From positions 62,001-126,000 of the forward strand of contig JACRMM010000015.1 in NCBI GenBank assembly GCA_016214985.1: 64,000 bases of DNA, written 5' to 3'. The position numbers were made by a program, and so were the translations under genes. The stretch comes from Deltaproteobacteria bacterium (GTDB lineage: Bacteria > Desulfobacterota > Deferrisomatia > Deferrisomatales > JACRMM01). The notes beneath the pieces are model-generated. The model did not search any database. It worked only from the letters and a program-made list of their open reading frames with translations, and was not told the DNA's origin. This document shows positions 35,783 to 49,259 of this stretch, piece by piece (position 1 is the first letter of the stretch; every line of letters begins with the position of its first letter).

Positions 35783-36025
35783 ATGGGCATGGCGAAGGTC
35801 GCGATCACTCTTGACGAGCAGTTGCTCGGGAGGCTGGACCGCTTGGTGAAGGACCATGTCTTTCCGAGCCGCAGCAAGGCCATCCAGGAGGCGGTGGCGG
35901 ACCGGCTGGACCGTCTGGAACGGACGCGGCTCGCCCGGGAGTGCGCCAAGTTGGATCCGGCGGAGGAGAACGACCTGGCCGAGGAGAGTCTGGTGGCCGA
36001 AGCGGACTCATGGCCGGAATACTGA
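35783..36025 (+). CDS. MazE/CopG-like ribbon-helix-helix antitoxin
   Basis: An 80-residue protein. Residues 4-45 form a ribbon-helix-helix domain ([20 protein letters not shown], then [12 protein letters not shown]), and the acidic C-terminal tail ([21 protein letters not shown]) is the type that wraps its toxin. GGAGGG lies five bases before ATG 35783. It would repress its own promoter and neutralise a MazF toxin, but the adjacent toxin gene is broken. Confidence 0.88.
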
Positions 36026-36129
36026 GGGGCGACATCCACTGGGCCGAGCTCAACCCGGTTCGAGGCAGAGAGCAGGCCGGGATGCGGCCTGTGCTTGTCC
36101 TCAGCGCGGACGTGTTCAACGAGAGGTCT
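36010..36129 (+). pseudogene. Truncated mazF-like toxin
   Basis: Starting at ATG 36010, overlapping the antitoxin gene by 16 bases as in intact mazEF pairs, the first 40 codons read like MazF/PemK ([34 protein letters not shown]). After NERS the similarity ends abruptly and the frame continues with unrelated sequence to 36276. MazF proteins are normally about 110 residues, so the catalytic core is missing. The break lies 210 bases from intI, suggesting that arrival or rearrangement of the integron destroyed it. Confidence 0.8.
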
Positions 36130-36339
36130 GAGTTTCCGAAAGAGCCTGCGAAACAGCCGGGCGTGGCGCTCGGCTCGCACGGGGGACCTCCGTCGAGAAG
36201 AATTGCCCTGCCTCGGCATGGGTTCCCTCCCCTGCGAGCCGCGGGCAACGGCGTGGAGGCCGCGGCTTCCGCTTGACCCTGGCTCGGGTCTTCGATTACA
36301 AGGCGTGAGCAAGGGAGGGGAGCCGTGGGGGAATCCGCG

Positions 36340-37860
36340 TCAGTTCTCAGCCACCTTCGCGAGGCCGCCGGGCCGGACGACACCGTCCGCGTCGGCGGCC
36401 TCGTCGTGCTCTGCGGGGGGAGCCTTCGCCGGCCGAGCCGCGCGTTCGGGCGCCGGGGCGGGCCGGCTGCGCAGGTCGGCAGGGCTTCGCACCGCGAGGC
36501 CGGGCCGGTTCATGACGTGCGTGTAGATCATCGTGGTCTTCACGTCCTTGTGCCCCAAGAGTTCCTGGACCGTGCGGATGTCCTGGCCGGCGTTGAGGAG
36601 GTGGGTGGCGAACGAGTGGCGCAGGGTGTGGGCGCTCGCGTGCTTGAAGATGCTGGCGCCTCCGACCGCTGCCGCGATCGCTTTGTGCACGGTGGATCGG
36701 TGCAGGTGGTGACGCCGAATCACCCCGGTTCGGGGGTCCTTCGACAGGTCGGCAGACGGGAAGACGTACTGCCACTGCCATTTCTTGCCGGCAGCCGGGT
36801 ATTTGCGCTCCAGCGCCTCCCCGATGTAGACCCCGGCCACGCCCGCCTTTCGGTCCGCCTCGAAGAGCTCCCGCACTCGTGCCAGGTGTTCTTGGAGTGG
36901 CTCTCGGGCGCAATCGGGGAGCACCGTGACGCGGTCCTTGTCCCCCTTGCCTCGGCGGACGACGATCTGGCCGTAGTCGAAGTCGATGTCTTGAACGCGC
37001 AGGCGCAGGCAGTCGGAGATCCGAAGGCCGCTTCCGTAGAGAAGCATGGCGACCAGCAGGGACGTGCCGTCGAGCTGGCCGAGCAACCGATCCATCTCCG
37101 GGCAAGAGAGCACCGTCGGCAGGCGCTGGGGGCGTTTGGCCTTTCCGAACTCGCCGATCATCCCGAGGGGTTGACCGAGCACCTCCCGGTAGACGAACAC
37201 CAGGGCGCACAGGGCCTGGTGCTGGGTGCTCGCCGAAACCCCGCGCGTCTGCGCGAGGTAGCTGAGGTAGGTTCGGACGGCGCCTTCTGCCTGCTCTCGG
37301 GGCGGCAGCCCCTTGTGAAAGGCGAGGAACCGCCGGAGCCAGTCCTCGTAAGCGCGCTCCGTCGCGAGGGCCTTGTGGCGCGTGCGCATTTCTCGGCGAA
37401 ACCGGTCCAAGAGGTCCGCGTGGGCGCTGTCTGCGTCGGCCCCCCGGACGGCGTCGGGGGCGGGCCGCGCCGAGACCTCGACCGGCGAAGGCGACGGTGC
37501 GGCCCGGTGGCTCGCGAGCCTGTCGGCAAAGTGAAGATGGGGCTCCCTCCACGCCGTCCAAGGGAACTCCGCGGCCCAGGAAACCTTGACGAAATCTGCG
37601 TACAAGATCTGAACCGCGTCGATGACTTGGGCGATCTGCCAGTCCTTCAGGTCCCACCGGCTCAGGAGTCGGGCGAAGTAGGCGTGGACGTCTTGCGGGG
37701 TCCGGTCGGCGAGGCGGACAGCAGGCAAGGCCTCGGCAAAGTGTTTGGCGCGTTTCAGCGTCCACTCCGCGGCCTTCCCGAGGATGCCCCGGCGCGTCAG
37801 GGCATCCTGGTAGCGTTTCCAAAAGGCCTCGACTTGCTGGGTATCCAGCTGGGGATTCAT
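36340..37860 (-). CDS. intI: Integron integrase IntI
   Basis: A 506-residue tyrosine recombinase. The catalytic residues are visible: Arg in [14 protein letters not shown], HxxR in [13 protein letters not shown], and Tyr in TTMIYTHV. The insertion specific to integron integrases is present ([39 protein letters not shown]). An N-terminal extension of about 190 residues before the core SAM-like domain is longer than in class 1 IntI (337 residues). It points away from the cassettes, as in all integrons. ATG 37860 has AGGAGG about ten bases upstream. Confidence 0.96.
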
Positions 37861-37897
37861 GGCGGCAGCCCTCCTGGGTGAAGGGAGTGGGTCGTGC

Positions 37898-37919
37898 GTA
37901 TATTGTGCGTAACATATAC
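37898..37919. promoter_or_regulatory. Palindrome over the intI -10
   Basis: GTATAT-N10-ATATAC is a perfect 6-bp inverted repeat that covers the predicted intI -10 box. It is a likely repressor site, but it does not match the E. coli LexA box. Confidence 0.45.
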
Positions 37920-37941
37920 TCTGCGACAGGTTGACTGTCAA
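37913..37941 (-). promoter_or_regulatory. intI: Promoter of intI
   Basis: On the minus strand a perfect -35 TTGACA (37936-37941), a 17-base spacer and -10 TATATG (37913-37918), 50 bases ahead of the integrase start. Confidence 0.7.
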
Positions 37942-38099
37942 GGATGACGCCAAGAAAATGAGGCCGGCCCACCGCCTACCGCCGAGGGGCGGCAAGATCG
38001 GCTGTCGAGACTCTGCTGGAGAAGGGGATGAGGGGCCGCGGGTCCGGGGGCGGCTCAAACCGCATCAGTAGCGCGCTACAGACAGGCGGTTACGTTGCG

Positions 38100-38128
38100 T
38101 TCAACATAACTCCCCCTTTTGTCATAAT
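38100..38128 (+). promoter_or_regulatory. Candidate cassette promoter (Pc) beside attI
   Basis: -10 CATAAT (38123-38128) has a weak -35 TTCAAC (38100-38105) at 17 bases. It reads into the cassette array. The attI site should lie around 38085-38158, ending at GTTGCGT where the first cassette begins. Confidence 0.4.
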
Positions 38129-38154
38129 ATGTTGCCTTCAACATATACTGCTGT

Positions 38155-38295
38155 TGCGTCACTGCATCCAGTGAACACAGCCGTCGAATGCTACGTCTTT
38201 CAGGTGGTCGTCATCGTCTCCGAGGCCACACTTCACGCAATCAGCGAACTCGGTATTGCGCAAGGTCGCATTCTGCCGGAAGCACTCATGGCAAC
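38155..38295 (+). repeat. 141-bp perfect direct repeat, copy 1
   Basis: Identical by eye over 141 bases to 39523-39663. It begins at the 5' junction of the first cassette and ends within CATGGCAAC. An open frame from GTG 38173 runs through it and stops at 38323 (50 residues), but there is no ribosome binding site, so coding is doubtful. Confidence 0.9.
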
Positions 38296-38339
38296 CGGCA
38301 CGTCCAACACGTTCGGGGCATAGTCATACCTCCAAGGCC

Positions 38340-38402
38340 GCAGAACAACGGCCTGCATGCGGAACTCCGCTACGCTCCGTCCCATGAGGCCGGGCGTTAC
38401 GT
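38340..38402 (+). repeat. attC site of cassette 1
   Basis: R'' GCAGAAC (38340-38346), inner CGGCCT and AGGCCG arms, and R' GTTACGT (38396-38402). The R'' box is the exact complement of the GTTCTGC junction that precedes the second copy of the 141-bp repeat, which links the two copies to one ancestral cassette. Confidence 0.8.
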
Positions 38403-38416
38403 GAAAGGAAAGGAAC

Positions 38417-39037
38417 ATGATTTCTCAACCGATGGCCACGTGCAAGTCAGCCGGCGAACGCTTCTTTCGGTATTACCATCGGTATTGTGTCGCGCCCGAC
38501 ATCGATGTCCTATTTGAACTCCTTAACGCCATTCATAGCCTTAACGACAAATTACAGAAGGCTACTTCAGAGAATTTCTTCGCCTGCCCCGAATTCACTG
38601 CGTTGAAGGCCTTACGCAATCTCCTGCACCATGAGGCAGAACTAATTCATGAAGTTCGTCCGCTATCCGTCGCCGATCTGCCGATCATGAGCGACGTCCT
38701 GTCTCTGTGTTTGGTGCCCAGAAGCCTAGTCGAAAGAGCAATAGAGCAACTCGACAAAAAGCGCAGAAGCCAAGACGAAGAGGCGATCCGCTCGACGCTA
38801 AAGTGGTATGCGGAAGTGGTGAATATAAATCCTTGCATATTCAATTTCGCTGTCCACGCTTTCGAAAAGCTTAGGGGACTCGAAATCGACCTCGACGGAG
38901 AAGAATACGCTGAGTTCGAGCGGAGCTACCAATTCGAAGAAGATACTGGGCACTCCCACTACATATCCGGCGACATCCGTTGTCATGCAGGGGACGTCGA
39001 CGCCGTTCTCAATTCTGCGTTCAGGAAGATCACGTAA
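38417..39037 (+). CDS. Integron cassette protein of unknown function
   Basis: A 206-residue protein in a cassette bounded by GTTACGT and its own attC. GAAAGGAAAGG precedes the ATG. The A+T content is much higher than in the surrounding chromosome. It is largely helical (LLNAIHSLNDKLQKATSENF, FTALKALRNLLHHEAELIHE) with an acidic C-terminus and no signal peptide or membrane segment. The ALRNLLHHEAE stretch resembles helical HEPN-like or immunity-type proteins only in a general way. No family recognised. Confidence 0.85.
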   Translation: MISQPMATCKSAGERFFRYYHRYCVAPDIDVLFELLNAIHSLNDKLQKATSENFFACPEFTALKALRNLLHHEAELIHEVRPLSVADLPIMSDVLSLCLVPRSLVERAIEQLDKKRRSQDEEAIRSTLKWYAEVVNINPCIFNFAVHAFEKLRGLEIDLDGEEYAEFERSYQFEEDTGHSHYISGDIRCHAGDVDAVLNSAFRKIT

Positions 39038-39103
39038 CAATCGGCTCAACGCGGAAGCTCCGCACACTCCGCGTGCTCCGCTCCGGTTAGCCGTACGTTA
39101 CCC
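39032..39103 (+). repeat. attC site of cassette 2
   Basis: R'' ACGTAAC (39032-39038) contains the stop of the cassette gene and is the exact complement of the cassette's own 5' junction GTTACGT. Inner arms CGGCT and AGCCG; R' GTTACCC (39097-39103). Confidence 0.9.
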
Positions 39104-39389
39104 GCGAGAGAAGAAAGCCATCGGGGCTTTGGCTGTAGCCGGTTCGAGCCGAACACCCGCCGGCCCCCATCGTGCGAGCGAACGGTGGTGTTGGAAGCTG
39201 GATCGCGGTATCCGTGTTGGCAGCGCTGTTGCCGCCACGTATGGTCCGAGGCGTTCTCCGGCCGGGTCGGCAGGCCGCGTTCCCGAGCGTCAATTGGGGC
39301 CGGCGCCCCGTGGTGGTGAGCGGTGGCGGTTGAGCAAGCGGCGGCGAGATCCAGGCGGTTCAAGCACGGTGGCGGACGGGAAGCAGGGC
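39104..39389 (+). other. Integron cassette body without a convincing gene
   Basis: About 290 bases of G+C-rich sequence between two attC sites. One frame runs through it and ends exactly at the TAA in the next R'' box, as cassette genes often do, but I see no start codon with a ribosome binding site and the translation is low complexity. It may carry a promoter, a non-coding RNA or a degraded gene. Confidence 0.6.
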
Positions 39390-39525
39390 GGGTAACCAGC
39401 GCCTCCAGGCGGACTTGCGGCCCCACGGGGTTTCCAGGGTCCCCTGGCCGAAGTGGTGAGCCGAGCATCGTGGTTCTCGTCAACCTGTTCCCAGGCCGCA
39501 AGCACGCTGAGGCGCGCCGTTCTGC
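39390..39525 (+). repeat. Long attC site of cassette 3
   Basis: R'' GGGTAAC (39390-39396) is the exact complement of the cassette 3 junction GTTACCC. Inner arms GCGCCTC (39400-39406) and GAGGCGC (39509-39515); R' GTTCTGC (39519-39525). At 136 bp it is near the upper end of attC lengths. Confidence 0.8.
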
Positions 39526-39663
39526 GTCACTGCATCCAGTGAACACAGCCGTCGAATGCTACGTCTTTCAGGTGGTCGTCATCGTCTCCGAGGCCACACT
39601 TCACGCAATCAGCGAACTCGGTATTGCGCAAGGTCGCATTCTGCCGGAAGCACTCATGGCAAC
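39523..39663 (+). repeat. 141-bp perfect direct repeat, copy 2
   Basis: Second copy of the 38155-38295 segment, again starting at a cassette 5' junction. The downstream sequences of the two copies are unrelated, so this copy is a cassette front end joined to a different body. Confidence 0.9.
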
Positions 39664-39714
39664 TGAAGGCGTAGAAGGTAGAATCTTGCTGCTACGGGCG
39701 TCAGAGGAGCCATT

Positions 39715-40047
39715 GTGAACAGTCGGAAGGAATGGGTGCCAGTAGTCGGCGCGCTTCTTGGTATCGGATTCATTGTAGCTCTGGTTGCCGGTCGTTCTCC
39801 TGCGCCGCCTTATGGGGGTGCCGTTGGCGCGCTGATCGGTATCGGAGTCGCAGTGTATCAAACCATGAATACACCTAAGAGCATGAGAAAACGACAGTTC
39901 ACGATATGGCTGCGAAGCGGGGTCCCGGGCGGATACAGGAGAGATGATAGTCGTACATTCTTTGTGTTTATGATGGCGCTTGCGTGCGGCGTATCTGCGG
40001 GCATATGCCAGTTGATCATTCTCGGCATTCAGAAGGCGTTAAGATAA
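39715..40047 (+). CDS. Cassette-encoded small membrane protein
   Basis: A 110-residue protein from GTG 39715 with three hydrophobic segments (VVGALLGIGFIVALVAG; GGAVGALIGIGVAVYQTM; TFFVFMMALACGVSAGIC). No family recognised. It lies in the cassette that begins with the second 141-bp repeat. The ribosome binding site (GAGGAG) is close to the start. Such small membrane proteins are frequent in integron cassettes. Confidence 0.75.
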   Translation: MNSRKEWVPVVGALLGIGFIVALVAGRSPAPPYGGAVGALIGIGVAVYQTMNTPKSMRKRQFTIWLRSGVPGGYRRDDSRTFFVFMMALACGVSAGICQLIILGIQKALR

Positions 40048-40073
40048 GCTACAAGATATAGCATTCTATTGCA

Positions 40074-40101
40074 ATCGGGCACTCACTGCGTTCGTGCCGA
40101 T
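40074..40101 (+). repeat. Degenerate attC-like inverted repeat
   Basis: ATCGGGCAC (40074-40082) pairs with GTGCCGAT (40094-40101) with one bulged G, at the expected place between two cassette genes. Neither R'' nor R' matches consensus, so the site may be decayed. Confidence 0.4.
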
Positions 40102-40119
40102 GAAGCGGTAGCAACGAAC

Positions 40120-40992
40120 ATGAAGACCATAGCGACGTTTAACAAGATCTACATCATCGAGTCCCTGAGAGAGATGCACTCGGGGAAGAGGCTCGAAGAC
40201 GCGATCTTCTGGAAAGGCTTGGCGATCGGCGGCCCAACGTGCCAGTTGTTCCAGCCACGAGGATCGGCCGAGTTTCTATTTGTATTGGAGGACATCCGGC
40301 GCGATGCCGAAGCGGGTATCTACCCGATTATCCATATTGAGGCGCACGGCTCGAAGGATGGATTGGAAGTAGCTTCGGGCGCGTTCATCGCTTGGGACGC
40401 GCTCAGAGAACGTTTGACCGCCGTAAACGTTGCCTGCCGCAACAACCTTCTGGTGACCATGGCAGCCTGCGAAGGCGCCCACCTCTTCCAGGTGGTCAAG
40501 CCGACGGAGCGCGCGCCATTCTGCGGTTTGATCGGTCCAAAGAAGGAGATCGCAGCGGGGGAGCTTGAGTCCGACTATTCTGCCTTCTACTCCGAGCTGC
40601 TTCAATCCTTCGATGGCAATAGGGCCATTGAAAAACTAAATAACAATTCACAAGAGAAAAACAGATATCTGTTCTTTGGGTGTAACTATTTGTTCGTATT
40701 GGCTTATGGGCGATACCACACAACGTTGTGTGCCGGCTCAGCTTTGCGGCAGAGAATTGAGAAGGTAGTATCTGATGCAAGGGCCAGGGGCCTGATGGAG
40801 AACATGCCTCTCAAGGAGGTCCGGAGGCTCGTAAAGCAGCACTTGGTGGATATGCAAGAGCCGTACTTCGAAAAGTACAAAGCGCACTTCATGATGATTG
40901 ACCTATATCCATACCTTAGAGAACGCTGGGACCCGACTTTGGACGCTGTTCGGGAGATGTACGAATCCATTGAGAGACAAAGACGGTTCTAA
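40120..40992 (+). CDS. Cassette-encoded putative CHAT/caspase-like protein
   Basis: A 290-residue protein. ATG 40120 was chosen because the frame upstream runs through the attC-like repeat. The core IYPIIHIEAHGSKDGLEVAS followed by NNLLVTMAACEGAHLF places a histidine after a beta strand (AHG) and a cysteine after the next (AAC.G). This is the His-Cys dyad layout of CHAT and caspase-fold proteases. The remainder is helical. The stop lies in the R'' box of its attC. Caspase-like proteases often act as effectors in phage defence, which is an inference here; the match is by motif only. Confidence 0.7.
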   Translation: MKTIATFNKIYIIESLREMHSGKRLEDAIFWKGLAIGGPTCQLFQPRGSAEFLFVLEDIRRDAEAGIYPIIHIEAHGSKDGLEVASGAFIAWDALRERLTAVNVACRNNLLVTMAACEGAHLFQVVKPTERAPFCGLIGPKKEIAAGELESDYSAFYSELLQSFDGNRAIEKLNNNSQEKNRYLFFGCNYLFVLAYGRYHTTLCAGSALRQRIEKVVSDARARGLMENMPLKEVRRLVKQHLVDMQEPYFEKYKAHFMMIDLYPYLRERWDPTLDAVREMYESIERQRRF

Positions 40993-41049
40993 CAAGGGGC
41001 TGGTGCGGATTGTCGCTGCGCTCCAACACGCACAGCCCCGCCGTTCGCA
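40987..41049 (+). repeat. attC site after the CHAT-like gene
   Basis: R'' TTCTAAC (40987-40993), inner arms GGGGCTG (40996-41002) and CAGCCCC (41033-41039), and R' GTTCGCA (41043-41049). Confidence 0.8.
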
Positions 41050-41074
41050 ACAACAACCCAAAAGGAGAAGAAAC

Positions 41075-41290
41075 ATGGATACCAACCACACCACCAAAAT
41101 TGAAACGCTAGAAAAACAGCGAAAAGTCCTTTTCGATTTTATCCAACTGCTTCCGGATCACCTGCAAGCCATTCAACGCCAATGGAAGGCAGGCAACACC
41201 ACCGAAGCGGACAAAATCATATCCGACACCATCCTAGAGAGCTTCAAGGTCAGCTCGGAGGCGAACGGTCTCAGCCCCAAGGTTTTCTAA
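41075..41290 (+). CDS. Small cassette protein
   Basis: A 71-residue helical protein with AAAAGGAGAAG before the ATG. It begins with MDTNHTTKIETLEKQ and is rich in Gln, Lys and Asp. No family recognised. Its 3' end overlaps the opposite-strand frame 41234-41485 by 57 bases. Confidence 0.65.
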   Translation: MDTNHTTKIETLEKQRKVLFDFIQLLPDHLQAIQRQWKAGNTTEADKIISDTILESFKVSSEANGLSPKVF

Positions 41291-41485
41291 TTCAGCACGC
41301 AGTTCCTCCCTCTCTTCCTGTATGAGAGAGTCCCAACGGTTACAGGAAACCTCAAAGGCATCTGTGTCTGCGTTCTTGTTGACAGTTGGGCATCCTTTGT
41401 ATCTATGGATTTGGGCACGCCAGGCAGACAAACTTTTGATACGGCGTTCAATCGCTTCCAGCGGGGTGGGAATGTCAATCAACAT
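41234..41485 (-). CDS. Possible antisense-orientation cassette gene
   Basis: An 83-residue frame on the minus strand with a protein-like composition: PTPLEAIERRIKSLSAWRA and a coiled-coil C-terminus (EEREELRAELENLGAETV). It is convergent with the gene at 41075 and overlaps its end. No attC of its own lies downstream on this strand. Either gene could be real; coding potential of this one rests on composition alone. Confidence 0.4.
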   Translation of the reverse strand: MLIDIPTPLEAIERRIKSLSAWRAQIHRYKGCPTVNKNADTDAFEVSCNRWDSLIQEEREELRAELENLGAETVRLRADLEAL

Positions 41486-41527
41486 TGTTACTGCTCTTAC
41501 GTCAATGGGGTTGCGAGGGAATCCGAG

Positions 41528-41625
41528 ATGAACAAGAAACAGAGATGGGTCCTTTCGTGTGGTTTGGTTTTTGTTGGCTTCATGCTATTAGTGCCTCCGG
41601 TTCAATGGGATAGATCGAATAAAGG
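41528..41625 (+). pseudogene. N-terminal remnant of a small membrane protein gene
   Basis: From ATG 41528 the first 30 codons read NKKQRWVLSCGLVFVGFMLL and so on, the typical beginning of a small membrane protein with one hydrophobic segment. The frame then runs without stop into the transposase at 41711, through sequence (AGGGGACAGG) resembling REP flanks. The gene was evidently cut by insertion of the transposase unit. Confidence 0.55.
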
Positions 41626-41710
41626 CATAGGGGACAGGCCGATAAAGTTGACACGGCGATCCGATGAGCTAGATATCCTGGCAACTATCTACCCGCGCTG
41701 GAGGTGTGCC

Positions 41711-42637
41711 ATGCCCAGGATCGCTCGGCTCGTGATGAAGGGGGAACCGGCCGTCTACCACGTGATCTCTCGGACGGCGCTGGACGGCTTTGTCCTCGGA
41801 GACGTCGAGAAGGACCACCTGCTCCACCTCATGCGCCACCTGGCCGCGGTCTACTTTGTCGAGGTCTTGGGGTTCTGCATCATGGGCAACCACTGGCACC
41901 TGCTGGTGCGCATGCACACGGGGGAGGGGGTCTCGGACGAGGAGGTTCGGGAGAGGTTCCGGCGCTGCCACGGGGCGACGAGCAAGCGGGCTTTCACGGA
42001 GGGGCAGATCCCGCTTCTGCGGGAGAAGTGGGCGAGCCTCTCGGAGTTCGTGAAGGACCTCAAGCAGACCTTTTCGCGTTGGTACAACAAGACCCGCGGG
42101 CGGCGCGGGTTCTTCTGGGGGGAGCGGTTCAAGAGCGTGCTGGTGGACACGGGCGACACGCTGGTGAACTGCCTGGCGTACATCGACCTGAACCCGGTGC
42201 GGGCGGGGATGGTGGGGAGGCCCGAGGAGTACCGGTGGTGCTCGCTCGCCTACCACGTGCAGACAGGAAACGGGGGAGGTTTCCTGTCGCTCGACCTGGG
42301 GCTACGGGCGTTCGGGAGTTGGGACGACCGGAAGCGACTGCGGTACTACCGGGAGTATGTGTACGGGATCGGCTCGCAGCGCTCGACCAAGGGGGCGAAG
42401 ATCGACGACCGGACGATGGCCAGGGAGGAGAAGAAGGGCTACGAGCTCACGGCGGCGGACCGGCTGCTCTTCCGGACGCGGTATTTCACGGACAGCGGGG
42501 TGATCGGGTCGAAGGAGTTCGTGTCGCGCTGCTACCGGCTGTTCGAGAGCCACTTCACTTGCCGACACGAGAAGCGGCCGCGAGGAGTGGCGGGGCTCGA
42601 GGGCGTGTTCTCGTTGAAGCGGCTCGCCGGGGGGTAG
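41711..42637 (+). mobile_element. REP-associated tyrosine transposase (RAYT) 1
   Basis: A 308-residue Y1/IS200-like transposase of the RAYT group. The HUH metal site is in MGNHWHLLVRMH, the catalytic tyrosine probably in SRWYNKTRGRRGFFWGERFK, and AYIDLNPVRAGMV is a family marker. Such enzymes cut single-stranded REP hairpins. The true start is ATG 41711 although the frame continues upstream into the truncated membrane gene. It sits within an integron cassette. Confidence 0.9.
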
Positions 42638-42639
42638 AC

Positions 42640-42657
42640 GGTGCGTTGTGTGCCCGT
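42640..42657 (+). repeat. REP-like 18-bp repeat, copy 1
   Basis: GGTGCGTTGTGTGCCCGT directly after the RAYT 1 stop; the same 18 bases recur at 43374-43391, and both are followed by a pyrimidine-rich CCTGACC. Confidence 0.75.
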
Positions 42658-42670
42658 TCCCTCCTGACCG

Positions 42671-42703
42671 CTCCAGGCCAACCCCTGAAACGTCCCGTTC
42701 GCG
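42671..42703 (+). repeat. Half attC site left after RAYT 1 insertion
   Basis: CTCCAGGCCAACCCCTGAAA then GTCCCGTTCGCG closely matches the 3' half of the attC at 43232-43304, ending in R' GTTCGCG (42697-42703). The 5' half is replaced by the transposase unit. Confidence 0.75.
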
Positions 42704-42721
42704 CAATAGAATGGAGCATAC

Positions 42722-42982
42722 ATGCCCAGGATCTCTGCTTTCTTCGGTATCATCATCTGGATGTATTACGACGAGCACAACCCGCCCCACCTTCACGCCG
42801 AATTCCAAGGGAATTGGGTTGTGTTAGACTTCCAGGGTAGCATCATCAAGGGCGATCTTCGTTCGCGCACCGCGCTGCGCTTGGTCCGCGATTGGATCGA
42901 TTTGCATGTCCAGGAGCTGCAAGAGGACTGGGAGCTTGCAAGAGCTGGCCGTGATCTTAGAGAGATAGAACCCCTGAAATGA
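42722..42982 (+). CDS. DUF4160 protein
   Basis: An 86-residue protein with the family pattern MPRISAFFGIIIWMYYDEHN followed by PPHLHAEFQG and a C-terminal helix with RDWIDLHVQELQEDW. DUF4160 genes usually sit next to DUF2442 genes, as here, and the pair has been discussed as toxin-antitoxin-like; the mechanism is not established to my knowledge. It is the first gene of a two-gene cassette beginning TTCGCGCAA. Confidence 0.9.
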   Translation: MPRISAFFGIIIWMYYDEHNPPHLHAEFQGNWVVLDFQGSIIKGDLRSRTALRLVRDWIDLHVQELQEDWELARAGRDLREIEPLK

Positions 42983-42992
42983 GAGGAAGATC

Positions 42993-43289
42993 ATGTGGGA
43001 TATGAATGAAGTTAAGCGAATCGAATACAAGCATGAATACATCTACGAAGTTCATTTTGACAACGGCCTATGTGCCGAGGTTGATTTTGAACCCTACTTG
43101 ACGCGTGGTCCCGTCTTTGAGCCCCTCCGAGATATTGAATATTTCAAAAGAGCTACCGTGGAGGGGGGGACGATCTCCTGGCCGAACGGTGCCGACATCT
43201 CTCCCGAGAGTCTTTACGAGAAGGTGGAGAGCGCGAACCAGCGGTTGCAGTCGGATTGGCCTTCCGCTTCGCTTCAGGCCAACCGCTGA
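42993..43289 (+). CDS. DUF2442 protein
   Basis: A 98-residue protein. The beta-rich core (YEVHFDNGLCAEVDFEPYL, GPVFEPLRD, FKRATVEGGTISWPNGADIS) is typical of DUF2442. It starts ten bases after its DUF4160 partner. The reading frame runs past the R'' box and ends inside the attC stem, so its last 17 residues are encoded by the recombination site. Confidence 0.9.
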   Translation: MWDMNEVKRIEYKHEYIYEVHFDNGLCAEVDFEPYLTRGPVFEPLRDIEYFKRATVEGGTISWPNGADISPESLYEKVESANQRLQSDWPSASLQANR

Positions 43290-43304
43290 AACGCGCCGTT
43301 ACGT
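43232..43304 (+). repeat. attC site of the DUF4160-DUF2442 cassette
   Basis: R'' CGCGAAC (43232-43238) is the exact complement of this cassette's 5' junction GTTCGCG at 42697. Inner arms AGCGGTTG and CAACCGCT; R' GTTACGT (43298-43304). Confidence 0.9.
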
Positions 43305-43373
43305 GGTCCTAAATAGAAGCTATTAACGATGGACGTCGATAAGCATCGCGGTGGCCTTGAACAGTATGGTCAA

Positions 43374-43391
43374 GGTGCGTTGTGTGCCCGT
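43374..43391 (+). repeat. REP-like 18-bp repeat, copy 2
   Basis: Second copy of the 42640 repeat, 70 bases into the following truncated cassette, followed by tandem CCTGACCTCC units. Between here and 43473 no gene is seen. Confidence 0.75.
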
Positions 43392-43450
43392 CCCCCCCTG
43401 ACCTCCTCCTGACCTCCGCAGAGCGTGAAAGGTTGTCAAGGGCGCGGTCT

Positions 43451-43484
43451 TATCGTCACCCGCGGGTCCAGAGTTATTCGTCAC
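43451..43484. repeat. IS21-type terminal repeats
   Basis: TATCGTCAC (43451-43459) and TATTCGTCAC (43475-43484) are spaced repeats of the kind found at IS21-family ends, next to the istB stop. Confidence 0.5.
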
Positions 43485-44265
43485 TTTGGACGTCGGTAGG
43501 CTCGGTGAATGAGCAGAGGGGGACGTAGGTCTGAGGCCGTTGTCGTTTGCGGTAGGAGTCTCCTTTCAGCACGAGGTGGTGGGCGTTGTGGGGCAGACGG
43601 TCGAGCGCCGAGTTGGCCATGACGGGGTCAGGGAAGAGTGGCAACCAGTCGGCGGGCGGGCGGTTCGAGGTGACGATGATCGAACCTCGCAGATGGCGTT
43701 CGGCGACGATCTCGTAGAAGTCCTCGGCCTGCCCCATGCTCATGGGCTTGAGGCCGAAGTCGTCGAGGATCAGGAGGTCCGGGGCGAGGAAGCGCCGGAT
43801 GTCAGCCTCCCAGGAGTTGTCGGCGCGGGAGGCCTGGAGCGTTCGAAAAAACTTCGCCGCCTTGACGAAGAGCACCGAGCGGCCCATGCGGCAGGCTTGG
43901 TGACCAAAGGCTTGGGCGAGATGGGTCTTGCCGACGCCGGCGGGGCCATAGAGCAGCACGTGCTCTCGCTTTTCGATAAAGAGCCCGGTGGCGAGGTCGC
44001 GCACGGCGGCGGGTTGGATACCGGGCATACAGGAGAAGTCGAACTCCTCGAGGGTCTTGGGCTCCTCGAAGCTGGCTCGCTGCAAGCGAAGGCGCAGGCC
44101 CAGGGCGTGGCGGCGCTCGATCTCGTCCTGGAGGATGAGTTGGAGGAACTCGAGGTAGCCGAGTTGGCCCTGGCGGGCCTGATCGAGGCGCACGTCGAGG
44201 GTGTCGAGCATGCGACCGAGTTTGAGGGCTTTGAACTGACCGACGAAGGCGGGGGAAAGACTCAT
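43474..44265 (-). mobile_element. istB: IstB helper ATPase of an IS21-family remnant
   Basis: A 263-residue AAA+ ATPase: Walker A YGPAGVGKTHLAQAFG, Walker B DLLILDDFGLKPM and the C-terminal ATSNRPPADWLPLF-like segment (IIVTSNRPPADWLPLF). It starts at ATG 44265 with AGGAGG eight bases upstream; the frame remains open further because of the repeats there. The transposase istA, normally directly upstream, is missing, and the REP array of RAYT 2 begins 35 bases away. The element is therefore not self-mobile. Confidence 0.92.
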
Positions 44266-44298
44266 CAGGGCACCTCCTTGCCGGGGGCGGCGAAGGAA

Positions 44299-44378
44299 GG
44301 GCAAGGGGACGGGGAAAGGCAAGGGGACGGGAAAGGCAAGGGGACGTAAGGGGAAAGGCAAGGGGACGTAAGTGAAAT
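44299..44378 (+). repeat. REP-like array left of RAYT 2
   Basis: Four to five tandem units of GGCAAGGGGACG, the last ending in AGGGGACGTAAGTGAAAT (44361-44378). This 18-mer is a perfect inverted repeat of 45434-45451 on the other side of the transposase. Confidence 0.85.
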
Positions 44379-44420
44379 CGTGCATTGCCCGGCGGCGGGA
44401 CGGGGTGTAGGGTTGAGTCC

Positions 44421-45434
44421 ATGCCGCGACAAGCCCGACTCGACGCTCCGGGAACTCTCCATCACGTGATCGCCCGCGGGATCGAGCGCAAGGCGATCTT
44501 CGTGGGGAAGAGGGACTACGAGGACTTCCTCCAACGCCTCGAAGCGGCCGTCGTGTGGGGGGGGGCACAGGTGTATGCGTGGGCGCTCATACCCAACCAT
44601 TTCCACTTGCTGCTGCGCACGGGCGAGGCGGGGCTGCCTTCGGTCATGCGGCGGATCCTGACGGGGTACGCGGTAGGCTTCAATCTGCGCCATCACCGGC
44701 ACGGGCACCTCTTTCAGAACCGCTACCGGTCGATCGTGTGCGAGGAGGAGACGTACCTGCTCGAGTTGGTGCGCTACATCCACCTCAATCCGCTGCGGGC
44801 AGGGCGGGTGGACAGCGTCGATGCGCTCGCACGCTATGCGTACGCCGGTCACTCCGCGGTGCTCGGGGCAGTTGAGCGGCCGTGGCAGGAGGTGGGGGAG
44901 GTGCTGGGGCGGTTCGGGGGATCGGTGTCGGAAGCGCGGCGTCGCTACGAGCAGTTCGTGGGCGACGCCGTAGGCGACGGGCGTCGGCCGGAGTTGGTGG
45001 GAGGAGGGTTGCGCCGCAGTTGTTGGGCGTGGCGGGAAGGAAGGGGTCGCGGGCGCGAGGACGAACCGCTCGCCTACGACGAGCGGGTGTTGGGCAGCCC
45101 CGAGTTCGTGCTCGATACGCTGGCGGGGGCGGATTGGGAGAGACGACAAGCGTTGGAGAACGCGCGCGTCGGGATCGGGGAGGTGGCGGGACAGGTCATG
45201 GCGTTGGCGGGGGTGGGCGAGGAGGAGCTACGCAGTGCCAGCAAGCGGCCTCGCGCAGTCGCGGCCCGCAAGGCACTGATCGAGGTGGCCGTCCGGGAGT
45301 TGGGCCATTCCGGAGCCGCCGTGGCCCGGTACCTGCGGGTAGTGCCCTCGACGGTGAACCGGCGGGCGGCACATTCGGAAGCGAGCGACCTGGCCAAGCG
45401 GCTCTGGAAGGAAGTGGCGAAGGGAATTTCTTGA
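44421..45434 (+). mobile_element. REP-associated tyrosine transposase (RAYT) 2
   Basis: A 337-residue RAYT. HUH motif ALIPNHFHLLLRTG, catalytic-tyrosine region GYAVGFNLRHHRHGHLFQNR, and RYIHLNPLRAGRV. The C-terminal 100 residues contain a DnaA/MerR-like helix-turn-helix (GHSGAAVARYLRVVPSTVNR) absent from RAYT 1, marking a second subgroup. ATG 44421. Flanked by inverted REP arrays. Confidence 0.93.
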
Positions 45435-45524
45435 TTTCACTTACGTCCCCTTGGCCGACGTCCCCTTGGCCGACTTACGTCCCCCTTGGCCGATTACGTC
45501 CCCTTGGCCGACTTACGTCCCCGC
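45434..45524 (+). repeat. REP-like array right of RAYT 2
   Basis: Begins with ATTTCACTTACGTCCCCT, overlapping the transposase stop, then four further (CTTA)CGTCCCCTTGGCCGA units. It ends at CCCCGCGTTGCCC, where the next cassette starts. Confidence 0.85.
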
Positions 45525-45551
45525 GTTGCCCCTATCAGAAAGGACCTCACC

Positions 45552-46262
45552 GTGAATACTTCACTCAGGTACGACCTCGAGGGTAATGTCGCTACTATCA
45601 CCATCGACGACGGCAAGGCCAACGTCATGAGCGTTTCGATGTTGGGGGCCATAGACGCGGCGCTGAGCCGAGCTGAAACTGACAAGGCAGTTGTCGTCAT
45701 TCAGGGCCGACCTGGCATGTTTTCCGGAGGGTTCGATCTCGCCGTATTCCAACGCGACAAAGAGGAACTCTTTGCCATGTTGAAGGCAGGAGCGGAGCTC
45801 ACCGAACGCATGCTGAAATTTCCGTACCCAGTGCTTGCAATCTGCACCGGGCACGCAATTGCTATGGGCGCATTTCTACTTTTGTGCGCGGACGTTCGAA
45901 TTGGAACAATGCCCGACGCGAAGATTCAGGTCAACGAAGTTCAAATTGGTCTGACGCTCCCTCACTTCGCCGTCGAGGTGTGCAGGCAGCGCTTGTCCCC
46001 GGCGCACTTGAATTTGGCGGCCATCACGGCAACTCCGTACAATCAGCACCAAGCTGTATTGGCGGGGTTTCTCGACGAATTGGTCCCTCCAGAGTTAGTC
46101 GCGGAGGTCCTGAGAAGCCGGACAGCACATTTGTGCAAACTGCACATGGAGTCATTCAGCGCGTCCAAGATGCGACTACGAGGCCCGAGCTTGCATTTGC
46201 TCCGCACTGCAATTGCACAAGACATCGATAGCTGGTCAAAGAGATTTCAAGGCGTGGCCTAA
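45552..46262 (+). CDS. Cassette-encoded crotonase (enoyl-CoA hydratase/isomerase family)
   Basis: A 236-residue crotonase-fold enzyme. The oxyanion-hole segments are RPGMFSGGFDLAVF and GHAIAMGAFLLLCADVRIG, and a candidate catalytic glutamate is in QVNEVQIGLTLP. The substrate acyl-CoA is unknown. The start is GTG 45552 with AAAGGA upstream. Its stop lies in the R'' box of a canonical attC, so this metabolic enzyme travels as an integron cassette. A+T content is above the chromosomal background. Confidence 0.88.
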   Translation: MNTSLRYDLEGNVATITIDDGKANVMSVSMLGAIDAALSRAETDKAVVVIQGRPGMFSGGFDLAVFQRDKEELFAMLKAGAELTERMLKFPYPVLAICTGHAIAMGAFLLLCADVRIGTMPDAKIQVNEVQIGLTLPHFAVEVCRQRLSPAHLNLAAITATPYNQHQAVLAGFLDELVPPELVAEVLRSRTAHLCKLHMESFSASKMRLRGPSLHLLRTAIAQDIDSWSKRFQGVA

Positions 46263-46316
46263 CCCGCTGGTCAACCGGATCTGCCTTCGGCAGGCTGGTT
46301 ACCAGAAACGTTAGGA
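46257..46316 (+). repeat. Canonical 60-bp attC site of the crotonase cassette
   Basis: R'' GCCTAAC (46257-46263), arms CTGGTCAACC and GGTTACCAG, a central CTGCCTTCGGCAG hairpin and R' GTTAGGA (46310-46316). Confidence 0.92.
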
Positions 46317-46319
46317 ACT

Positions 46320-46916
46320 ATGAAGAGGAATAACCAAGAGATGCTATCGCACCAGCAATCTATGCGGATCTTAGCCGAGTACAGTCAGGAGGCGGGATGG
46401 AACAAGCACTGTTTTGCCGTCGCGCATGCGGCGGCAAAAGTTGGCCATGTTCTGTCAAAGAACCGTCCAATTGACTGCTCATTTCTCTGGTCTGCAGCTC
46501 TGCTGCATGACATCGGGAGATACATAACACACGACCCACTACTTCATGGCGTGGAGGGCTACAAACTGCTGTCGATGTTGGGACATGAAAAGGAAGCCCA
46601 CGTCTGCGCGTCGCACATTCTTTTCGGCCTCAATGCGGCAGAGGCCACCCAGCTGGGCTTGCCCGATCGCGACTTCGTGCCACGCACTGTTGAGGATAAG
46701 CTCGTACCGCTCGTCGATTACTTGATTGAGTATGACCAGCCCACCACGCTAAACCGTAGATTTTCGTCGTTGCGGAAGCGCAATGGCGGCAACTCGTTTT
46801 TCTTGAACAGGCTTGAGCGCGCCTACGAGATTGCAAGACTATTCATGACACAGATTGAAGGGGAGATCGACGAATCTATTGAGAGAATTGTCGCGTCGCA
46901 AGAGAACTGTTCCTAG
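46320..46916 (+). CDS. Cassette-encoded HD-domain phosphohydrolase
   Basis: A 198-residue HD-superfamily protein. Metal ligands are visible as His in NKHCFAVAHAAAKVGHVL, the HD pair in AALLHDIGRYIT, and a downstream Asp in PLVDYLIEYD. Likely a nucleotide or metal-dependent phosphohydrolase; the substrate is unknown. It follows the crotonase attC by four bases and ends in its own R'' box. Confidence 0.88.
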   Translation: MKRNNQEMLSHQQSMRILAEYSQEAGWNKHCFAVAHAAAKVGHVLSKNRPIDCSFLWSAALLHDIGRYITHDPLLHGVEGYKLLSMLGHEKEAHVCASHILFGLNAAEATQLGLPDRDFVPRTVEDKLVPLVDYLIEYDQPTTLNRRFSSLRKRNGGNSFFLNRLERAYEIARLFMTQIEGEIDESIERIVASQENCS

Positions 46917-46985
46917 AACATGCGTCAACGCGGATTGCCAACTCCGCTGCGCTCCGCTGGCAACCGGTTACGCATCGCGTTGTAC
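46913..46985 (+). repeat. attC site of the HD cassette
   Basis: R'' CTAGAAC (46913-46919), arms ATGCGTCAAC and GGTTACGCAT, R' GTTGTAC (46979-46985). The R'' differs from the complement of its 5' junction (GTTAGGA) by an inserted G. Confidence 0.8.
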
Positions 46986-47014
46986 CCCGGGAAAATCATG
47001 GATGACGGCAGGGT

Positions 47015-47867
47015 TATGCCTGGGCCCTTCTCCCCAACCACTTCCACCTCCTGCTGCGTGCGACGGAGGGTTCTCTTTTTTCTTTCATGCGCCGCCTGCA
47101 ATCCGGCTACGCCGTCACGTTCAACCGGCGCCACAGGCGATCCGGCCACCTCTTCCAGAACCGCCAAGTCGATCGTATGCGAGCGGGAGGTGTACCTTCT
47201 GGAACTTGTCCGCCACATCCACCTCAACCCCCTTCGGGCGAGAGTGGTCAGAAGCCTGGAGGTGCTGACGAGCTATGCATACGCGGGGCACGCGACGTTG
47301 TTGGGGAAGGCCGATCGGGCCTGGCAAACGACGGTAGAAGTGCGCAACCGGTGTGGGGACACGGTGGGCCAAGCCCGTTCGGGGTACGAGGAGTTCGTGC
47401 AGGTGGGGGCGGAGCAAGGGCGTCGGCAGGAGCTTGTGGGAGGCGGATTGCACCGGAGTTCGGGGGCGTGGCTCGACCTGCCAACTCGCAAAGGCCAGCG
47501 GGAAGCAATGGTCCACGATGAGCGGGTGCTCGGTGACTCAGCGTCTGTGGCGGATCTTCTGGCGGATGCGGATTGGGAGCGACGGCAACTCCTGAAGGCG
47601 AGAACGCGAGCGGGCATCGCGGAGCTTGGCGAGCATGTGGCGAGGTTGGGCGAGATCTCCGTCGAAGAACTTCTGGGGGGCGGCAGGCGACGAAGAGTTG
47701 TGCAAGCGAGGACAGCGTTGGCCCAGGTGGCGGTCGGCGAGTTTGGGCACACGGGAGCGGCATTGGCGAGGTACCTGGGGGTTGCTCCTTCGACGGTCAA
47801 CCGGAAGGCCGTTGACGGTGAACTCTCTTCGCTCGCCAAGAGAGTCTTGGAAGCCGTGCAGAGTTGA
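47015..47867 (+). pseudogene. Broken RAYT 3
   Basis: A decayed copy of the RAYT 2 subgroup. It begins at YAWALLPNHFHLLLRATEG without the normal N-terminal 50 residues. The frame reads HLFQNRQ near 47165, where two bases appear lost, and the rest continues in another frame (SIVCEREVYLLELVRHIHLN to the HTH-containing end at 47867). It directly follows the HD cassette attC and is not functional. Confidence 0.85.
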
Positions 47868-47921
47868 TATGCGCTTTTGCCCATACGTCCCCATCGGTTC
47901 ACCGTCCCCGTGAGGTGCAGC

Positions 47922-49259
47922 GTGAACGAACCGACACCAGCGTCCTCTGCGACACCCCCGGTCGGGATCACTCGGTATGAGCCGGGCAGGAATTCGCTGC
48001 GCGCCGCGATCGAGTGGGCCGACGGGTTTCGCGACCTCGATCCGAGCACGAGCGTGCTCATCAAGCCCAATATCATCTGGGGCGGCGGCGGATCGAAGAA
48101 GATCCCGCGGTACGGGATGATTACGACGGCTCGGATCGTGGAAGATCTTGTGGTGCTGCTCCGGGAGCACGGTTGCACGGACATCTCGATCGGCGAGGGC
48201 ACGGTGGCCGATCCGCAGATGGGCTCCACCACCAGTCGGGGCTTTACGTGGTCCGGTATACGGCGCGTCGCGCAGCAGCATCGGGTGCGCCTGGTCGACT
48301 TCAACGCTGGGCCGCACGAACCGGTGGACCTGGGCGGCATCCAGGCGCGGATCTCGACCCACGCGCTGCGGGCGGGGTTCCTGATCAGCGTTCCGGTTCT
48401 CAAGACGCATGCGATGACCAAGGTATCGCTCGGCCTCAAGAACCTGAAGGGCTGCCTCTCGATGGGTTCGAAGAAGCGGTTCCACCAGCACGGCCTCGAT
48501 GAGCTGATCGCACGAAACGCGCTGGTTCTCCAGCCGAAACTCACGGTCATCGACGGCATCTATGCGCTGGCAGAGGGCCCTACCTCCCTTGGCGCTGCCT
48601 ACCGGTTCGACCTGATCGCGGTCAGCCGGGACGCCCTCACCTGCGACGCGGCGGGGTCGGCTCTCCTGGGAATCGACCCCACGTCCGTGGAACACCTCGT
48701 TGCGTATGCGGACCTCGTCGGGCGGAGCCCACGCCTCGAAGCCGTCCCGGTCCGAGGGGTCCCTCTCGACGAGGTGTCCCGGAGCCTTTCGTGGGAGGCG
48801 AACACGTACGAGGACGTGCTTCGCCGGGCGCAGATCTCGGGCGTCACGGTTCCCTGGCCGGGCAAGCGCTGCTGCACCCTGTGCGCCACAGGGCTCGGGT
48901 GTGCCCTGGTCGCCCTGGCCAAGGATGTGGCCGGCAGGACCTTCGATGGCGTCGAGATCTGTGCCGGAGCCGACGTCCGTGCTCAGCCCCGCTCGAAGAA
49001 GGTCATCCTGGTCGGGGACTGCGCCGCGCGCAGCAACGCGGACCGGCGGGACGCCGTGGCCGTTCGCGGCTGTCCGGTCGGGGTGACCGGGCTCCTCTCC
49101 ACCCTGGCGATCCACACCCTGGGCTTGAGCGAGGGGCTGCGCGTTCTCGCCCCGAGGGCCCTCAAGACGCTCGCCCATCGGCTCGGGCTCTGCGACGAAC
49201 TCTTCCCTGCCTATCGGACGTACTCGCCTCCGGAGTTCGATCCGTTGCACTTCTCCTGA
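47922..49259 (+). CDS. DUF362 protein
   Basis: A 445-residue protein. DUF362 features are LIKPNIIWGGGG near the N-terminus, the acidic loop GEGTVADPQMGS, LKTHAMTKVSLGLKNLKGCL and YALAEGPTS. The C-terminal part has a CCTLCATGLGCAL cysteine group and further cysteines that could hold a cluster. DUF362 proteins are often fused to ferredoxins, and their reaction is unknown. GTG 47922 follows GAGGTG. It begins the chromosomal DNA beyond the integron, with REP-like CATACGTCCCC just upstream. Confidence 0.88.
   Translation: MNEPTPASSATPPVGITRYEPGRNSLRAAIEWADGFRDLDPSTSVLIKPNIIWGGGGSKKIPRYGMITTARIVEDLVVLLREHGCTDISIGEGTVADPQMGSTTSRGFTWSGIRRVAQQHRVRLVDFNAGPHEPVDLGGIQARISTHALRAGFLISVPVLKTHAMTKVSLGLKNLKGCLSMGSKKRFHQHGLDELIARNALVLQPKLTVIDGIYALAEGPTSLGAAYRFDLIAVSRDALTCDAAGSALLGIDPTSVEHLVAYADLVGRSPRLEAVPVRGVPLDEVSRSLSWEANTYEDVLRRAQISGVTVPWPGKRCCTLCATGLGCALVALAKDVAGRTFDGVEICAGADVRAQPRSKKVILVGDCAARSNADRRDAVAVRGCPVGVTGLLSTLAIHTLGLSEGLRVLAPRALKTLAHRLGLCDELFPAYRTYSPPEFDPLHFS

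Follow-up and report, generated by a model that had tools for sequence, protein, structure and literature searches.

Two cassettes of one integron array begin with the same 141 nt, possibly as eroded copies of a duplicated cassette

Copy-and-paste duplication of gene cassettes has been documented in other integrons (in the portion of PMC8024014 on which we rely), and so has the fusion of cassettes through loss of an attC site (in the portion of PMC4670013 used here). The locus described here, part of a stretch of 64,000 nt that we call the window, compares with both. The likeness to copy-and-paste by IntI as treated in that part of PMC8024014 lies in two copies of one cassette per array, one of them beside attI; the difference is that both copies are partial here. 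A duplicated cassette would be recognised by two whole copies, attC included, and here only 141 nt are common to the two. The likeness to the fused cassettes of that part of PMC4670013 lies in the cassette at 39520-41043, where an attC fitting the front is missing and the genes seem to stem from two cassettes. It differs in that the lost attC may survive here, in cassette 1. The features of the locus are collected in Table 1.

Table 1. Features of the integron and its first cassettes (positions in the window).
Feature	Position	Strand	Remarks
Integron integrase IntI, 506 aa	36340..37860	-	NCBIfam TIGR02249; Pfam PF13495, PF00589
Probable attI	38089..38153	+	Inferred from reading the sequence
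Cassette 1: R, then a cut frame of 50 aa from GTG 38171, then attC1	38154..38396	+	No complete gene
Copy 1 of R	38155..38295	+	Identical to 39523-39663
attC1, R'' GCAGAAC	38340..38402	+	Member of the attC model training set
Cassette 2, intact, front complements R'' 7/7	38397..39097	+	206-aa ORF 38417-39037
Cassette 3, 422 nt, intact, ends 7/7	39098..39519	+	attC3 39390-39525
Copy 2 of R, intact front GTTCTGC at 39519-39525	39523..39663	+
59-aa ORF, starts in R, ends in unique sequence	39539..39718	+	Codon score 0.244 per codon
110-aa ORF, judged by eye to encode a likely membrane protein	39715..40047	+
290-aa ORF, a probable part of a second cassette that fused with the first	40120..40992	+
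attC closing the probably fused cassette 39520-41043, R'' TTCTAAC	40987..41049	+	attC scan/model

The integrase is an IntI-type tyrosine recombinase, as expected of an integron: it scores 418.9 bits against TIGR02249 (integrase_gron; cut-off 265) over residues 150-462. About 148 aa precede its core-binding domain. In a scan of GTDB, 24 of the 80 loci kept match from query residue 30 or earlier, showing that an N-terminally extended form of IntI is widespread; the literature searched yielded no function for this extension of about 148 aa. Beside intI, the window holds seven attC sites, all on the + strand and spread from 38340 to 46985, that is, a tandem array in a single orientation. Six of these seven sites were used to train our attC model, and attC3 was recovered untrained with an E-value of 0.0089. 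The attI site is a probable one, placed by resemblance: it is composed of the units GTTGCGTTCAACA (38094) and GTTGCCTTCAACA (38131), with G|TTGCGT as the end site, and similar repeated units occupy the corresponding position both in genome G002 and in the other integron of the present genome (contig 48).

The two copies of the repeat, R, are identical over exactly 141 nt (100% identity by sequence comparison), as the first-pass annotation had stated. Their neighbouring bases differ on both sides (5', T for copy 1 vs C for copy 2; 3', C vs T), and chance is excluded as the origin of the match. On the left, R is flanked by attI or by attC3; on the right, by the rear of cassette 1 or by the copy-2 genes. 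A search of the whole genome (5.6 Mb, 72 contigs) found R at these two places and none further, and attC1 with the rear of cassette 1 has a single occurrence in the genome, as do the genes after copy 2. Both copies end in GGCAAC. Copy 2 is preceded by GTTC, giving the junction GTTCTGC, and R starts there 3 nt past the G|TT point (39519|39520); in copy 1 it starts 1 nt past it (38153|38154), the shift being due to GTTGCG in copy 1 against GTTCTGCG in copy 2. The copies were said to begin at a cassette 5' junction: they begin near one, offset by these few bases. A search for partial front repeats in seven stretches of other arrays met only a pair of attC-like repeats (67 nt, 94%) and a 182-nt pair (86%).

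What links the two copies is the pairing between cassette fronts and attC sites. As a test of whether a cassette is intact, its first seven bases (the G plus the first six) were compared with the complement of its attC R'' box. Over 13 consecutive attC pairs from the window, contig 19 and genomes G001 and G002, the pairing was 7/7 in eight, and the first cassettes at the attI of G002 and of the contig 48 integron also gave 7/7. Cassette 1 departs from this: its R'' needs a GTTCTGC front, to which its own front, GTTGCGT, fits 4/7 and that of copy 2 fits 7/7. Common descent of both copies, already proposed in the first-pass annotation from the same complementarity of GCAGAAC and GTTCTGC, stands on this comparison. 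In the cassette at 39520-41043, the R'' fits a front GTTAGAA and matches the actual GTTCTGC at 3/7; a foreign R'' of this kind is expected of a fused cassette. Imperfect too are 41044-43298 (6/7), 43299-46310 (5/7) and, in G001, a stretch of 2252 nt (3/7); all are long and likely hide a missed attC or an insertion. In 46311-46979 (3/7), the R'' seems by eye to hold one inserted base. Matching the first seven bases to R'' can hence serve to assign cassette fronts to bodies.

R itself has the character of coding sequence. With a codon model built from seven ORFs of the array, the frame opened by a GTG inside R (38171/39539) scores 0.23 per codon, and none of 5000 shuffles of R reached the observed score. 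In the controls, 26 true-frame chunks had a mean of 0.126 and 130 wrong-frame chunks a mean of -0.356 with a maximum of 0.241; with one wrong-frame chunk at that value, the codon score alone is not conclusive. Past copy 2, the frame continues for 17 codons with coding character (score 0.157) to a total of 59 aa, and its TGA overlaps the GTG of the 110-aa ORF (GTGA), behind an AGGAG. Past copy 1, it ends after a few codons of non-coding character (score -0.396), at 50 aa in total. The codon score and the continuation of the frame together point to R being the start of a gene, which, as the sequence reads, appears complete behind copy 2 and truncated behind copy 1. The 1524 nt of cassette 39520-41043 contain three ORFs: in Pfam, the 59-aa ORF had no match, the 110-aa ORF retrieved DUF1427 alone and the 290-aa ORF Peptidase_C13 alone, both sub-threshold. 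The 206-aa ORF of cassette 2 had no Pfam or PADLOC match, and Rfam gave no hit at E 0.1 over 36000-48000.

The explanation we favour, and to which we give about an even chance of being right, is that R represents the opening 141 nt of a single gene cassette, of which two partial copies exist because the cassette was duplicated and the copies were then eroded differently. The ancestral cassette would have had the front GTTCTGC, a short GTG-start gene coupled to the 110-aa gene, and an attC whose R'' reads GCAGAAC. The integrase, in a 'copy and paste' event, would have set a second copy at attI, the first one staying behind cassette 3. The attI-proximal copy would then have lost the stretch from about codon 42 of the first gene to the attC region, and also 2 nt at its front, leaving a 243-nt remnant with an attC and without a complete gene. 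The downstream copy would have kept its genes, lost its own attC and fused to the cassette of the 290-aa gene behind it. Directly observed are the identity of the fronts, the differing neighbours of R (two on either side), the pairing of attC and front, and the reading frame; the order of events, the role of the integrase and the correctness of the linear order of the contig are what we infer. If that order is right, the array offers a snapshot of a cassette after duplication, its two copies degraded in complementary fashion, and a possible route to the origin of gene-less remnants and of fused cassettes. The first-pass suggestion that recombination builds hybrid cassettes would thereby reduce to duplication plus deletion, and we do not retain it as a separate process. 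Several points speak against our reading: the repeat is as long as the assembly k, as discussed below; the front of copy 1, GTTGCGT, requires the extra loss of 2 nt; by eye, no remnant of attC1 follows the 110-aa ORF, which counts against the direction that we prefer; and the collections searched contained no relative of the ancestral cassette. A search of the literature for truncated, duplicated, partial or remnant cassettes found none, and such cases may exist in print.

The same duplication could have run in the other direction. The cassette of copy 1 would then be the original, duplicated behind cassette 3, where a deletion would have joined its front, in frame, to genes from a different cassette. 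The front GTTCTGC and the R'' GCAGAAC do belong together, and the attC of cassette 39520-41043 is foreign to its front, as this direction would have it. Yet the frame of R runs on as coding sequence, coupled to the next gene, solely after copy 2, and cassette 1 itself lacks a complete gene. A random fusion would continue in frame one time in three, so that copy 2 is only mildly favoured as the original; on balance we think this direction less likely than the one we prefer, and unlikely overall. The first-pass annotation had also proposed a mobile cassette front, a promoter or leader, captured twice; the two different right neighbours would fit repeated capture by different cassettes. Against this, R is coding and contains no promoter-like match, the sole such match near copy 2 (39656-39684) starting in the last bases of R and lying mostly beyond it. 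R was also absent from 197 other related genomes (DNA search with the 141 nt), from plasmids (blastn with 38140-38420), from viral contigs (exact 27-mer) and from GTDB contigs (exact 20-mer), and without a match outside its own genome nothing points to a travelling module: we find this proposal barely credible. Searches with its coding frame and with other parts of the array were also run: the 59-aa frame was found in none of 296 other genomes and in no plasmid, the 110-aa ORF, searched in 395 genomes, met its own genome and one weak match (E 8.5e-4), and 3 kb of the array had no relatives in E. coli genomes. Very improbable, too, is an exchange of cassette fronts as units, in which the integrase would cut both at the cassette junction and where R ends, at a cryptic AA|C site, joining one 5' coding front to different bodies.

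A more serious rival to duplication and erosion comes from the assembly. Exact repeats of at least 60 nt were listed for both ends of each of the 72 contigs (20 kb at the start and 1 kb at the end, with shorter contigs taken whole), for the window and for further stretches, 1.77 Mb in all. The longest exact repeat in this sample measured 141 nt. Contig-terminal sequences recur elsewhere in 62 of 144 cases at 141 nt and in 0 of 144 at 142 nt; this drop marks a de Bruijn assembly with k = 141. The length of R thus equals the k-mer length, and among the 38 exact 141-nt pairs (34 end-end, three end-interior) the R pair is the only one with both members inside contigs. The default largest k of MEGAHIT is 141, and k141_ appears in the record titles of 10 of the 80 loci from the GTDB scan for the integrase. 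In a de Bruijn graph, a 141-mer that has two neighbours on each side is expected to end a contig; the unbroken contig at R suggests that a later step picked a path. End overlaps tied to the largest k are stated for two other assemblers, and curation is said to make tentative joins on them, in the portion of PMC7111523 on which we draw; R resembles these overlaps in having the length of the end overlap of the present assembly, and differs in lying inside a contig, not at contig ends. The path through this node may therefore be wrong: attI-R-genes and a closed or tandem unit of R and cassettes 1, 2 and 3, or pieces from different strains, would have been joined later. A closed loop would give all three cassettes fronts that fit their attC 7/7. 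Such a node exists, however, only with a repeat of exactly k, and the doubt is limited to how the flanks pair; moreover, the contig is a single piece, with no N run in the stretches examined. We regard a wrong path as somewhat unlikely, if a possibility to be reckoned with.

With a repeat exactly k long, the arrangement attI-R-cassettes-R-genes is indistinguishable, on contig evidence, from attI-R-genes plus a loop, and the physical order of the pieces at the R pair is provisional for this reason. R has two left and two right neighbours on either path, so that the sharing of R itself is certain. Of the artefact that the first-pass annotation had named as a refuter, the caveat on assembly remains and the identity of the copies is untouched. 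We reject the idea that contigs were simply concatenated with their overlap left untrimmed, since the copy-2 junction fits attC1 7/7. As a rule, where a draft genome contains an exact repeat of the same length as the assembly k, it is best regarded as an unresolved branch pending reads.

Other elements were noticed along the array and elsewhere in the genome. Genes for IS200-like (Y1) transposases lie within the array at 41707-42637, at 44422-45434 and, by eye, at about 46980-47866. The one at 44422-45434 is flanked by inverted repeats (44359-44390 / 45422-45453) and surrounded, as judged by eye, by many GGGGACGTAAG motifs, and with these repeats and motifs it presumably resembles a REP-associated transposase. 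One cassette of the array carries adjacent DUF4160 and DUF2442 genes (42722-43286). A dispersed element of about 240-340 bp occurs elsewhere in near-identical copies (G000:C19:4723-4959, C47:41247-41583, C68:11180-11440, C1:42264 and 79138), some of them at contig ends. The integrase of the second integron (G000:C48:149328-150359, locus L150) is 51% identical and is encoded close to one end of contig 48, accompanied by a separate attI in which GTTTCTA..TATGGAAAC units are repeated; a cassette array forms the end of contig 19, which has sequence in common with the contig 48 end. By eye, the attI regions of this clade are made of repeated near-palindromic units that differ between integrons (GTTGC.TTCAAC, GTTTCTA..TATGGAAAC and TAGGCCGAAT..), as seen at 38089-38153, at about 5790-5930 of L150 and at about 11090-11180 of L153.
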